From an uncultured Gemella sp. (lineage in GTDB: Bacteria; Bacillota; Bacilli; Staphylococcales; Gemellaceae): a stretch of DNA of 13,152 nucleotides. The stretch covers positions 1 to 13,152 of the forward strand of contig CAMEOL010000010.1 in the NCBI GenBank assembly GCA_945929765.1. Direction: 5' to 3'. The notes beneath the pieces are model-generated. The model ran no database searches, was not told the origin of the DNA, and saw only the letters and a list, made by a program, of their open reading frames with translations. The position numbers and the translations under genes were made by a program. Shown here piece after piece: positions 7,055 to 10,252 of this stretch (the first letter of the stretch is position 1; the number at the start of each line of letters is the position of its first letter).

Positions 7055-7056
7055 AA

Positions 7057-7095
7057 AAAATGGGGCTGACCCAAAAGAGGGTCAGCCCCATTTTT
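7057..7095. terminator. Strong terminator after valS, probably bidirectional
   Basis: TGGGGCTGACCC (7061-7072) pairs perfectly with GGGTCAGCCCCA (7079-7090) around the loop AAAAGA. It is flanked by A and T tracts on both sides, so it can stop valS transcription and also that of the convergent regulator/peptide genes. Confidence 0.93.
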
Positions 7096-7112: not shown

Positions 7113-7249
7113 TTAAATATTATTTTGTGTATTTAGTGGCGGAATAAGTTTAATAGGAGGTTTTCCATCTGAAAATATTCCAACCCCAGAAGAACCGAAT
7201 ATTATTCCAATAATAGATACGGCTAAATAAATTTACTTAGTTTCTTCAT
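7113..7249 (-). pseudogene. PapR-like secreted peptide precursor ORF, broken by one missing base
   Basis: From the ATG at 7249 the frame reads MKKLSKFI and stops at TAG (7225-7223). The next frame then continues LAVSIIGIIFGSSGVG followed by IFSDGKPPIKLIPPLNTQNNI up to a TAA at 7115-7113. One extra T in the TTT run at 7227-7225 would join them into a 45-residue protein. That protein would have a lysine-containing N-terminus, a hydrophobic core, a small-residue GSSG stretch and a short hydrophilic tail, i.e. a typical exported pro-peptide. The ATG lies inside the end of the regulator gene, with AAGGA about 11 bases upstream. A short exported ORF directly after a 288-residue XRE/helical-repeat regulator is the PlcR-PapR arrangement. 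It may be a real mutation or a sequencing error; the mature peptide is unknown. Confidence 0.5.
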
Positions 7250-8099
7250 TTTTATGCAATTCCTTAATAATTGATAATAAATTAAGAGCGAAATTTTTCA
7301 TAACTTCATTTTTTTCAATATCAAAAATAAACAACGCTTTATTAACATTTTCTAATGCTGGAGAGTATAATTTTTGTTCTTTATATATGTATGCTTGTAG
7401 GCAATAAGCATCACCTAAACAATAAAAAGATTTATTTTCTAAAAGTTCTTTAATAAGTTCAGAGTTATAATATGATGCTTTTTCGTAATTTTTTAAACCA
7501 GAGTAAACTCTACTTATAGAATATAAAAAATTACGTTTGAGATTTTTATCTAAAGATGTAATAAAAGGTAAAACTTTTTCAAAATACTTTATTGAATCTT
7601 CACATTTTTCATTGTCATCTAAAATTGAACCTATAGCAGTTAATGTTTTTAAATACAAATATGAATTTTCCTCTGTTTTTTCTAATAATGTATTAAGTTT
7701 TGAAAGAGAAGTTTCTAAATCTTTATTAATAGAATATGTTAAAATTGCAACTACATATTCGTAAAAAAGTTTATCTTCTCCATATAATGTTGCAGAGTTT
7801 GTATTATTTATTATTATACTTAGTGTAGCATAATCACGATTATACAATAAATTTTTTATTTCTTCATTAAAAAATGAACTATTGTTTTCAGCTGTAATGT
7901 CGTAAATTTTTGCTAACTCTTCTATCGGTATGTTTAGTTTTTTTATAATTTTAATTACGACATCAAAAGATGGGCTAACTTCTGAATTTTCTATTCTGCA
8001 GACAACAGCTTGGTTAGAAATTCCTTTAGCTAACTCCTTCTGTGAAAAACCTAGCTCTTTTCTTTTTTGTTTAATTAAATTTGCTAATTTTTTATTCAT
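7233..8099 (-). CDS. PlcR-like transcriptional regulator (XRE HTH plus TPR-like domain), RNPP type
   Basis: This is a cytosolic DNA-binding regulator, probably controlled by an imported peptide. Residues ~7-62 form an XRE helix-turn-helix (LIKQKRKELGFSQKELAKGI, then VCRIENSEVSPSFDVV). From ~75 to the end the protein is all helical with repeated pairs typical of TPRs (for example YASYYNSELIKELL-like and YCLQAYIYKEQKLYSPALENV segments). The length of 288 residues matches PlcR, and the N-terminal HTH plus TPR order is that of the RNPP group (Rgg, NprR, PlcR, PrgX). The ATG at 8099 has AAAGGA about seven bases upstream. The stop overlaps the small exported-peptide ORF. Its reading frame stays open for 39 codons past the TAA, so that peptide tail lies in the same frame. 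Divergent small membrane-protein genes are plausible targets, by inference. Confidence 0.82.
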   Translation of the reverse strand: MNKKLANLIKQKRKELGFSQKELAKGISNQAVVCRIENSEVSPSFDVVIKIIKKLNIPIEELAKIYDITAENNSSFFNEEIKNLLYNRDYATLSIIINNTNSATLYGEDKLFYEYVVAILTYSINKDLETSLSKLNTLLEKTEENSYLYLKTLTAIGSILDDNEKCEDSIKYFEKVLPFITSLDKNLKRNFLYSISRVYSGLKNYEKASYYNSELIKELLENKSFYCLGDAYCLQAYIYKEQKLYSPALENVNKALFIFDIEKNEVMKNFALNLLSIIKELHKNEETK

Positions 8100-8121
8100 T
8101 TTAAAGTCCTTTCATAAAATT

Positions 8122-8150
8122 ATTATATAATAAAAAATTATAAAATGCAA
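8122..8150 (-). promoter_or_regulatory. Promoter of the PlcR-like regulator gene
   Basis: On the minus strand TTGCAT (8150-8145) and TATAAT (8127-8122) are 17 bases apart, with a ~16-base leader containing AAAGGA. The inverted repeat at 8160-8182 lies just upstream of the -35 box. Confidence 0.6.
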
Positions 8151-8159
8151 TAATGAATT

Positions 8160-8182
8160 ATATGAGAATATTATAATCATAT
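8160..8182. promoter_or_regulatory. Possible operator: ATATGA-N11-TCATAT inverted repeat
   Basis: Six-base arms ATATGA (8160-8165) and TCATAT (8177-8182) flank 11 bases. The flanks AATT...ATAATT extend the symmetry imperfectly. It sits 10 bases upstream of the regulator -35 box. The half-site resembles the TATG/CATA ends of the PlcR box, but the spacing differs. In such AT-rich DNA it could be chance. Confidence 0.35.
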
Positions 8183-8270
8183 TATATAATTAAAAATTAA
8201 AATAAAACTCTAAATATAGAAAACACAATTATAACATATAGAATAATTGAAAAAATGAATAAAAAACACA

Positions 8271-8296
8271 AAAAAGAATTTTTTAAAATTCTTTTT
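8271..8296. promoter_or_regulatory. 26-bp perfect palindrome just upstream of a promoter, possible operator
   Basis: AAAAAGAATTTT (8271-8282) and AAAATTCTTTTT (8285-8296) are perfect 12-base inverted arms around TT. The right arm ends four bases before the -35 box at 8301, an activator-like position. It is nearly all A/T, so it is a poor terminator stem. A regulator binding site for the divergent small-gene transcript is the simplest reading. Confidence 0.45.
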
Positions 8297-8300
8297 AACA

Positions 8301-8329
8301 TTGACAGCGTTTTTATTTTGTGGTATTAT
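8301..8329 (+). promoter_or_regulatory. Promoter of the small membrane protein genes
   Basis: TTGACA (8301-8306) and TATTAT (8324-8329) are 17 bases apart, with TGTGG before the -10 acting as an extended -10. The block matches the promoter at 2436 in 26 of 31 positions. Predicted start near 8336. Confidence 0.7.
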
Positions 8330-8372
8330 ATACGTGAGAAGAAGTAGAATAAAAAAGAGGTATTAATATAAA

Positions 8373-8549
8373 ATGAAAAAATATATTTTACCTTTATTAT
8401 GATTGTTAGTAGCATTAGTGCCTTCTATAATAGCTGCTACATATGTAGTTATAACACCTGTTGATTATATGTCTATTGTTGTATAATGTTTATTTGTATA
8501 TTTAGGGATAAAATTGTATATAGATAACACAGCTAAGAAAGATGATTGA
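8373..8549 (+). pseudogene. Small two-span membrane protein gene with two in-frame stops
   Basis: From the ATG at 8373 (AGAGG 12 bases upstream, strong promoter at 8301) the frame reads MKKYILPLL, then TGA (8400-8402), LLVALVPSIIAATYVVITPV and onward to ...SIVV, then TAA (8484-8486), CLFVYLGIKLYIDNTAKKDD and a final TGA at 8547-8549. Read through the stops it would be a 58-residue protein with two hydrophobic spans and a charged tail. The second stop falls where the next small ORF has Leu in the shared pattern VV-L-C, consistent with TTA changing to TAA. The first could likewise come from TTA, within a Leu-rich run. I do not recognise the family. Clean promoter signals with a broken coding frame indicate recent inactivation, unless these are sequence errors. 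Confidence 0.5.
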
Positions 8550-8582
8550 TTCTTTAGGTTTACTATATAGTAATAAAAACAT

Positions 8583-8620
8583 TAAAATACGAAATTTACC
8601 ATTATAATTATCGTATTTTA
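8583..8620. repeat. Inverted repeat between the two small broken genes
   Basis: TAAAATACGA (8583-8592) pairs perfectly with TCGTATTTTA (8611-8620) around 18 bases that can pair further through AATT segments. It could be a weak terminator after the first small gene or an operator for the second; there is no clear T tract. Confidence 0.35.
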
Positions 8621-8675
8621 TGCAAATATTGAAACATTAGTACTATAGTCTATATTCAAAAAGGAGATGAACGTT

Positions 8676-8869
8676 ATGTATAAGAATGTTAATATTGTAA
8701 GTATCATTTTCTGTACGTTAGTTTGTGCTGTAAATAGCAATATTAATATTACCGCTGAAAAAATGGATTTGAAAGATATGTTCTATCTGTAGTACTGTGT
8801 TATGCATTTCACTATATCAGTGGAAGAATAATGAAAAATAGAAAAAATAAAAATGACAATGAAGTATAG
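8676..8869 (+). pseudogene. Small two-span membrane protein gene, frameshifted in an A-run
   Basis: The ATG at 8676 has an excellent AAGGAG nine bases upstream. The frame reads MYKNVNIVSIIFCTLVCAVN and on to TAEK, but ends at TAG (8790-8792) after 38 codons. If the run of six A residues (8758-8763) had seven, the frame would continue NGFERYVLSVVLCYAFHY and on to a lysine/asparagine-rich tail ending NKNDNEV, with a stop at 8867-8869. That gives about 65 residues with two hydrophobic spans and a basic tail. Its second span (YVLSVVLC) resembles that of the preceding broken ORF (YMSIVV-stop-C), suggesting tandem paralogues. Possible explanations are a real deletion, a homopolymer sequencing error, or transcriptional slippage at the A-run. 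Function unknown. Confidence 0.5.
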
Positions 8870-8905
8870 TTTTGCCTTTATTAAGGTAATATAAGAAAAG
8901 TTAAT

Positions 8906-8941
8906 TTTAATTATATAAAAATATTTAATTATATAAAAATA
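8906..8941 (+). repeat. Tandem duplication of an 18-bp AT-rich unit
   Basis: The unit TTTAATTATATAAAAATA occurs twice in a row (8906-8923, 8924-8941), ending on the first base of the AGGAG of the next gene. It duplicates TATAAA-like boxes, so it may affect transcription initiation of the 105-residue ORF. Confidence 0.8.
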
Positions 8942-8954
8942 GGAGTTGATTTAT

Positions 8955-9272
8955 ATGGATATTTTAGCGCAAATATTAGAGTATAGTGTAAAAATAATTA
9001 TGATTTCGGCATTGATTTATGGAGTACTATATCCAAAAAATATATATTTATTGTTTATGCCTTTTACCATTCTAGTTCCATCTTGTTTTATCGGATATTT
9101 ATATTTTAGAATAGCTTACGGATATACAATGATTGATATAATAAATAATTACAATTTTTTAGGGTACTTAGTAGTTATTTACCACATTTTAATAATAATT
9201 TTCGTAGGTAAATTTCATTATAAAAGATATGAAAAAACAAATTTATTAAAGTCATTAAGTAAGAAACACTAG
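8955..9272 (+). CDS. Small hypothetical membrane protein
   Basis: I do not recognise this 105-residue protein. It has about three hydrophobic spans: residues ~8-25, ~30-52 (LLFMPFTILVPSCFIGYLYF) and ~68-88 (FLGYLVVIYHILIIIFVGKF). A basic tail ends KSLSKKH, so the C-terminus is probably cytosolic by the positive-inside rule. The ATG at 8955 is chosen because AGGAG (8941-8945) lies nine bases upstream; the in-frame TTG at 8946 abuts that site. It is the only intact member of the three small membrane ORFs here, and the general layout (hydrophobic span followed by a Lys-rich tail) is shared with the two broken ones. It may be co-transcribed with them from 8301 or use its own AT-rich promoter. A bidirectional terminator follows. 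Confidence 0.7.
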   Translation: MDILAQILEYSVKIIMISALIYGVLYPKNIYLLFMPFTILVPSCFIGYLYFRIAYGYTMIDIINNYNFLGYLVVIYHILIIIFVGKFHYKRYEKTNLLKSLSKKH

Positions 9273-9304
9273 GAATAGCTATTTATTAACGTTAAATGAA
9301 ACGC

Positions 9305-9333
9305 CCCTCATTACTTTAGAGAAGTAATGAGGG
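9305..9333. terminator. Bidirectional terminator between the small membrane gene and metQ
   Basis: CCCTCATTACTT (9305-9316) pairs perfectly with AAGTAATGAGGG (9322-9333) around TAGAG. T-rich sequence follows on the plus strand (CTTCTTTGTTG) and more weakly on the minus strand (GTTTCATTT), so it can end both the 105-residue gene and the met operon. Confidence 0.88.
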
Positions 9334-9436
9334 TGCTTCTTTGTTGTTTATCAATGTTTTAGTAACTCTCTTAAAATTTAACTACAGAAAATATTTCTGT
9401 GTATAATTTTAATGAAAAGTTTATTTATGAAATTTG

Positions 9437-10252
9437 TTAGAACGCAACCTTAGCTACGTTAGCAAGTTTTGTATTTACAAAGTCTTTAATTTTATCGCTA
9501 GTTAATGCTTTTTTCACAGCTTTAACAGCTTCACTATCTTTGTTGTCTTCACGAGCTACTAAAGATACTGCGAAAGTTAAATCTCCAGTTTTTTCAACTA
9601 ATAAACCATCTTTTTCAGGACTTAAACCTATTTTAGTTATATAAGCAGGGTAGTTGAACACTAGATCTTTTTCGTTGTATGCTTCGTTTAAGTTTAGTAG
9701 AGCTATAGGGCTGAATTTCAAGTTTTTAGGATTTTCAGCTATATCTTCTACTTTAACACTAAAGCTATTAGGATCTTTTAGTGTAATAACTTTGTGTTCT
9801 GCTAATAGACGTAAAGCACGAGTCATATTAGTAGGATCTGATGGTATAGCAACGTCAGCTCCGTCTTTTAAATCTTTAATATCTTTAATGTCTTTAGAGT
9901 AGAATGCAACTACAGCATCGTAAATAGGTTGAATTTGAGTTAAATTAGCTTGATTTCCTTCGTTAAACATTTGCATGAATAATTTGTGTTGGAAGAAATT
10001 AGCATCAACTTCTTTGTTTTTTAGAGCAACGTTAGCTTGAACATTATCAGAAACTTTTACAATTTCAAGAGTGTATCCTTCTTTTGCAAGATCTTCTTTA
10101 ACTAACTCTAACATATCTGTCATAGGTGCAGTGTGAGAAGCGACTTTCACAACTGTATTTTCTTTTTTTGTTTCTTGGTTTGTAGATGAGCATGCAGTTA
10201 AAACTAATGCTACAGCAATTAAAGTTGAGATAATTGAAAATAATTTTTTCAT
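9437..10252 (-). CDS. metQ: Methionine ABC transporter substrate-binding lipoprotein
   Basis: This is the membrane-anchored binding protein of the NlpA/MetQ family, which delivers methionine (and often D-methionine or methionine peptides) to MetNI. It has 271 residues. The signal peptide is followed by the lipobox LTAC with the acylated Cys at 21. Family segments include SHTAPMTDMLELVKEDL near residue 40, VDANFFQHKLFM, AIPSDPTNMTRALRLL, and the C-terminal DKIKDFVNTKL. AGGAG seven bases before the ATG overlaps the metI stop codon (TAGGAG), so translation is probably coupled across the 9-base gap. It is the last gene of the metN-metI-metQ operon. Methionine is inferred from family and operon order; some NlpA proteins bind other amino acids. 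Confidence 0.93.
   Translation of the reverse strand: MKKLFSIISTLIAVALVLTACSSTNQETKKENTVVKVASHTAPMTDMLELVKEDLAKEGYTLEIVKVSDNVQANVALKNKEVDANFFQHKLFMQMFNEGNQANLTQIQPIYDAVVAFYSKDIKDIKDLKDGADVAIPSDPTNMTRALRLLAEHKVITLKDPNSFSVKVEDIAENPKNLKFSPIALLNLNEAYNEKDLVFNYPAYITKIGLSPEKDGLLVEKTGDLTFAVSLVAREDNKDSEAVKAVKKALTSDKIKDFVNTKLANVAKVAF

Follow-up and report, generated by a model that had tools for sequence, protein, structure and literature searches.

Signalling by the receptor PlcR and its peptide PapR is an established mechanism in Bacillus. In Bacillales systems the pheromone gene is placed immediately downstream of the receptor gene, as described in PMC9765709, and the sequence ADLPFEF is given for PapR7 in PMC6568020. 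For tprA and phrA, PMC7595303 gives opposite orientations, and PMC12445099 reports IDPGPA in the TprA-like peptides of the salivarius group. Here, we describe a locus related to these systems in a 13,152-nucleotide stretch of DNA from an uncultured Gemella sp. (contig CAMEOL010000010.1 of assembly GCA_945929765.1; hereafter, the window), in which the gene of a PlcR-type receptor is followed, on the same strand, by a pro-peptide gene whose reading frame is broken. The window is contig C10 of its genome (G000), which comprises 1.14 Mb in 185 contigs and is 66% complete. The best explanation, to which we give a probability of about two in three, is that the receptor's own pheromone gene was recently broken, leaving the cell mute and at most a listener to its neighbours. 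The features on which this rests are as follows:

7233..8099, minus strand: PlcR-type regulator of 288 residues, with an ATG start and a TAA stop at 7235-7233; helix-turn-helix (HTH) at residues 9-62 and tetratricopeptide repeat (TPR) domain at about residues 70-288.
7223..7249, minus strand: leader of the overlapping pro-peptide open reading frame (ORF), reading MKKLSKFI and then a stop; its ATG (7249-7247) lies within the last codons of the regulator gene in a different frame, and its stop is at 7225-7223.
7113..7232, minus strand: rest of the pro-peptide, with its hydrophobic core and tail, shifted out of the leader's frame, IYLAVSIIGIIFGSSGVGIFSDGKPPIKLIPPLNTQNNI; 39 open codons (7232-7116) in the regulator's frame past its stop, ending in TAA at 7115-7113.
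7149..7160, minus strand: PPIK core, matching the PP[IV] motif near the C terminus of the intact pro-peptides of relatives.

Judged by its sequence and predicted fold, the 288-residue protein is a PlcR-family (RRNPP) receptor. A first-pass annotation of the window, made from its letters alone, had described a regulator of this length with an HTH and helical repeats; such a protein is present, and its relationship to PlcR is borne out on both counts. Residues 9-62 match PF01381 (HTH_3 type) at 44.7 bits, which is over the cut-off, the PlcR family profile matches the protein with an E value of 3.5e-26, and the PlcR structure 2qfc is aligned with residues 3-282 (E 4.3e-11). The predicted C-terminal TPR domain has the PlcR fold that characterizes the family, and ComR and Rgg are weaker fold matches. 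Perfect inverted repeats in 19 regions upstream of regulators gave no common operator motif by eye.

The short ORF that the same annotation had placed across the 3′ end of the regulator gene is likewise there and can be seen directly to be broken: from the ATG at 7249 it stops after 8 codons, and the tail continues in another frame, which is, as had been claimed, the regulator's own. Relative to the regulator, the leader's frame is that of the intact ORFs in two relatives (loci L159 and L151). The window has no intact pro-peptide gene of the short, exported kind next to the receptor; since the frame is broken, we describe the locus as the PlcR-family receptor of a broken pair and not as a working PlcR/PapR pair. 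When the 150 bases downstream were shuffled 20,000 times with dinucleotides preserved, a frame as open as the tail arose in 5.0% of shuffles, while 0.12% had PP[IV] ahead of the first stop and 0.01% had both; these figures concern the window alone, and the ORF in relatives is the stronger evidence. The G+C contents at the three codon positions are 41/38/10% in the tail and 33/24/13% in the regulator. This codon bias and the PPIK core indicate that the break is either recent or an error. The genome was also searched, with a PP[IVM][IVM] codon pattern, for another PP[IV] pro-peptide; the PPIK variant is undetectable in this way. Of the 54 sites found, no excess over the 48 of a reversed-pattern control, 14 lie within 14 codons of an in-frame stop and none has an ATG and a hydrophobic leader.

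The pro-peptide gene is best seen in relatives of the regulator. The boundary of their clade was set at 199 bits, where the next-best match scores 151 bits, and weaker TprA-like matches are outside the tally. The 3′ flank was read at 23 loci, namely the window, 20 further regions, L183 and L184; protein P0002 has no readable flank and lies outside the 23, P0005-P0008 and P0010 are uncounted, and two other proteins, P0004 and P0009, seem to be those of L045 and L183. An intact, ATG-started ORF that overlaps or abuts the 3′ end of the regulator gene and carries PP[IV] near its C terminus is observed at 12 of the 23 loci. Two more have a PPVILS tail without an ATG, two (the window and L161) are broken, and seven have no such ORF. 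A conserved ORF at this site is thus found in relatives, which favours the reading given in the first-pass annotation, with the broken and empty loci on the contrary side. The 12 intact loci are not all independent, as L155 and L162 have an identical regulator sequence and L153 has the same peptide; the peptide of L149 was taken from an internal ATG of its listed ORF.

The intact pro-peptides are 19-39 residues long and share a basic N terminus and a hydrophobic core, followed by PP[IV] near the C terminus in the forms PPIIW, PPIIHLQ, PPIIF, PPIKW, PPIIEFIK, PPVILS and PPVVGK. They include MKKFYKFLLIFTIFLSFFGGGWPPIIW in Gemella haemolysans, MKKSKLMFFLAVLFISAIVVIDISQITIYDFPPIIHLQ in Streptococcus sinensis and MKVLSIMMTLLVVVPPIIF in S. 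caballi, as well as MKLLKVAKIVTTLCLLIPPIIF, MKRLHLLSLVALFLLMIPPIIF, MKTEWKKLFLGIIVGVILFTLIGDLPPIKW, MKKLILVVKILLICLSSFSLFLQPILNNKEKPPIIEFIK, MKKKLIKFSLLLFTYVILFGDKIPPVILS and MKRLRYWFIAGLLCTSSLLFAVLLIPPVVGK at other loci and MKFSVLLLTYVILFGDKIPPVILS, which is common to three. Among 3711 short ORFs in the window and the 20 regions, only 25 have PP[IV] within their C-terminal 14 residues. These peptides make up 14 of the 25, so that the motif is no by-product of composition.

These features set the clade beside, and apart from, the described systems. The receptor resembles PlcR of the Bacillus cereus group over its full length in sequence and fold, and the pro-peptide gene of the intact relatives lies directly 3′ on the same strand, as does that of PapR; however, the clade's peptides carry PP[IV] where PapR has ADLPFEF (the LPFE core is absent from all 10 clade peptides), their precursors have 19-39 residues, exporters often adjoin, and the peptide gene of the window is broken. 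TprA/PhrA and TprA-like/PapR of Streptococcus likewise combine PlcR-family receptors with short secreted peptides, but in the clade the peptide gene is on the receptor strand, overlapping or abutting it, and the peptides are of the PP[IV] and not the IDPG type; three TprA-like outgroups also separate from the clade with support of 100/100 in a 26-row tree. Rgg/SHP and ComR/ComS have, by our own comparison, similar small hydrophobic precursors, whereas the receptor of the window is PlcR-type by sequence. We assign the locus of the window to a PlcR-type system that has a pheromone class of its own, this copy being either decayed or mis-sequenced. No description of a PP[IV] pheromone class was found in the open-licence PMC papers searched, and six peptide strings led there to no paper on bacterial signalling, as judged by title. 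The RRNPP_detector paper cites G. haemolysans, the species of loci L042 and L043, as an example for keeping small clusters (PMC10075063); that cluster may be this clade.

Gene order and the conserved peptide sequence are seen directly in both Gemella and Streptococcus. In the window's own family, the regulator is found in 4 of 15 genomes (E up to 1e-3). The profile matches 107 of 284 Streptococcus genomes at 1e-25, with a gap between 199 and 151 bits above which lie at least 17 loci in 15 genomes. At E up to 1e-50, the order that includes Streptococcus (395 genomes) added at least two further loci, and 398 genomes of the class gave only loci already found, among the best candidates scored. In these Streptococcus, order and class searches, the best 6-8 candidates were scored in many genomes, so carriers may have been missed and the counts are lower bounds. 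Carriers include G. haemolysans DP3_5B 119 and DNF01167, one Gemella sp. metagenome-assembled genome (MAG), S. sinensis HKU4 and S. caballi DSM 19004, and L183 appears to be a protein assigned by NCBI to a Carnobacteriaceae bacterium. Within the clade, the window, L161, the two G. haemolysans regulators and P0002 form a subgroup (support 86/93). In 12 of 14 family relatives, one of them partly masked, the 3′ flank of valS, which the locus adjoins in the window, is free of the regulator for about 1.5 kb, and the contigs of the other two end too early; as this flank is mostly without the regulator, the cassette is patchily distributed. A single-protein search of genome contigs (52 stretches) and a search of viral contigs with alignment A1 (579 stretches) gave no relative, and phage and plasmid records yielded only distant PlcR-like matches (2 and 16 records, respectively, all below 60% identity). 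Separately, the Gemella MAG G004 encodes seven further PlcR-like paralogues (L003-L009), of which at least L003 and L005 have a downstream short ORF with GVDPG, as in TprA-like systems.

Loss of the signal gene with the receptor kept is a recurrent and directly observed event in the clade. Near their 3′ ends, the regulator genes of L145 and L147 match over 290 bases with 98.6% identity; the match breaks off abruptly about 11 bases before the stop codon of L147, and only L147 has the peptide ORF. We also note a protein cluster of 47 members, P0008, whose end resembles that of the L145 regulator; as L145 has no peptide, loci without a signal gene may be common. The second broken locus, L161 (contig C28 of Gemella MAG G004), parallels the window. 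Its pro-peptide frame is broken just past the regulator stop, at the corresponding position and by an equal offset, while its regulator is only 38% identical to that of the window. The L161 tail, FSNDVPVQPTEV, has no PP[IV] and a third-position G+C content of 18%, and its resemblance to the tail of the window is not significant, a score as high being reached in 14.6% of 5000 shuffles. This parallel could stem from two independent breaks, from a single old break shared by both loci or from unusual expression of the displaced frame, the last being very improbable.

If the break were a sequencing or assembly error, the PP[IV] pheromone of the living organism would be intact and the pair functional. 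We consider this unlikely, although it is the most probable of the alternatives: the open tail, its codon-position bias and the PPIK core are what is expected of a gene still under selection, and the assembly is fragmentary, with its 185 contigs and incomplete genome. Mildly opposed to it are the nine long ORFs of the window, which are open from end to end over a summed length of 9627 bases, so that errors are not frequent here; in addition, the matching break of L161 sits in another assembly, on a contig recorded at about 2015x coverage. The same site and frame offset in two diverged genomes of the Gemella family, both with open tails of low third-position G+C, could also be read as a conserved device by which the displaced frame is expressed through frame-shifting or unusual initiation. 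This reading we find very hard to credit, given that no classical slippery heptamer or long homopolymer was seen at either site (by eye, with no dedicated scan), that no ATG, GTG or TTG start is listed for the L161 tail frame, that L159 of the same subclade is simply intact, and that the tails of the window and L161 show no significant similarity. That a peptide was never present, with the tail a chance open frame beside an orphan HTH-TPR regulator, would agree with the seven loci that have no ORF at the site, but it is highly improbable in the face of the shuffles, where an open frame with PP[IV] is so rare, and of a leader that begins MKK in the place and frame seen in relatives such as L159. 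The position of the tail in the regulator's frame had led the first-pass annotation to suggest a read-through fusion. In such a form, the ligand would be tethered in the groove of its own receptor. The fusion is unsupported and exceedingly improbable: in the predicted fold of the read-through form, the hydrophobic part merely extends the last helix and residues 303-328 have a predicted local distance difference test (pLDDT) score below 50, and in the overlapping intact relatives the peptide frame differs from that of the regulator, which means that no fusion is conserved. Placing the tail in the TPR groove by means of the read-through model gave no confident placement.

Several observations weigh against a recently broken pheromone gene as well. 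Seven of the 23 clade loci have no pro-peptide ORF at all, and the matching break in L161 fits simple independent decay poorly. Outside the PP[IV] core, the tail of the window only weakly resembles the intact peptides: five of ten alignments beat 95% of shuffles and none beats 99%. Only one sequence of the species has been seen (the P0001 cluster counts 5 members), and the break could be an assembly error. The exporter found at 17 of 21 loci is absent beside the regulator of the window. Finally, the oligopeptide-binding protein SBP_bac_5 has no match in the genome, while 14 of the 15 family genomes match and 13 are over the cut-off; this gap exists most likely because a third of the genome is missing. 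If it were not due to incompleteness, the strain would be not only mute but deaf.

The neighbourhood was laid out for 21 loci, with L183 and L184 outside the layout. A transporter gene of the major facilitator superfamily (MFS) or ATP-binding cassette (ABC) type adjoins the regulator at 17 of them, those without one being the window, L143, L157 and L158. Five streptococcal loci have a 398-residue MFS protein just upstream on the same strand, eight (L150-L156 and L162) have an ABC exporter of 533-562 residues, and L149 has an ABC ATPase with membrane proteins. In Gemella, L159 and L161 have divergent MFS proteins (54% mutual identity) and L160 a divergent ABC exporter; L161 has in addition an ABC exporter that shares about 40% identity with its counterparts in L150, L151 and L153. 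Of the five fused ABC exporters tested, four (L150, L152, L153 and L161) have the streptosactin exporter GggC as their best NCBIfam model, well below the cut-off, and that of L160 has CydD. A search for a precursor of a ribosomally synthesized and post-translationally modified peptide beside the exporters found only scattered ATG ORFs with a sequence resembling a ribosome-binding site (RBS), none seen in common. No decayed exporter was detected near the regulator of the window when the exporter proteins of nine related loci were compared with positions 8100-9440 (best E 0.76). Three further features lie around the regulator:

7056..7095, no strand assigned: 17-bp terminator-like hairpin (z -7.6) between the ends of valS (plus strand) and the regulator and peptide region (minus strand).
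8301..8329, plus strand: promoter-like site, divergent from the regulator, with 11 of 12 consensus bases and TG before the second hexamer.
8373..8549, plus strand: small membrane-protein-like frame, divergent from the regulator, with in-frame TGA at 8400 and TAA at 8484, and with an RBS-like sequence and the promoter-like site upstream.

The hairpin starts 17 bases past the stop of the tail and is unlisted by a consensus terminator scan. The region of the promoter-like site has no excess of such sites over shuffles (10 found, 11.1 expected), and the frame at 8373-8549 is probably a decayed divergent neighbour. Farther along, at 8946-9272 on the plus strand, lies a 108-residue membrane-protein-like ORF with a TTG start, no Pfam match at E 0.001 and a single homologue found, which is 99% identical.

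By analogy with PlcR/PapR, the precursor encoded at the 3′ end of the regulator gene would be exported and trimmed to its PP[IV]-containing end, which would return to the cell through the oligopeptide permease. There, the peptide would lie in the TPR groove and alter DNA binding, and an operon that often includes an MFS or ABC exporter would be under its control, giving a cell-density response. We likewise infer the regulon of the receptor and any listening by the window's cell. With leader and PPIK tail in separate frames, ordinary translation would make no pheromone in that cell, which would be mute; as the receptor is intact, the cell may at most listen to its neighbours.

Across Gemella and Streptococcus, PlcR-type receptors, short PP[IV] pheromones and an exporter may form one module, an undescribed peptide language in which receptors repeatedly outlive their signal genes and mute receivers are a regular state; we put this forward tentatively, as a possibility rather than an expectation. 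If it is true, mute receivers would hear other species, as when oral Gemella listen to streptococci. For PlcR-type receptors of commensals and pathogens in two genera, the clade offers a candidate pheromone code (PP[IV] close to the C terminus) together with precise candidate peptides. Beside its intact receptors, the signal genes are intact, without a start, broken or lost, a natural series that would make the persistence of receptors without a signal of their own testable across related strains.
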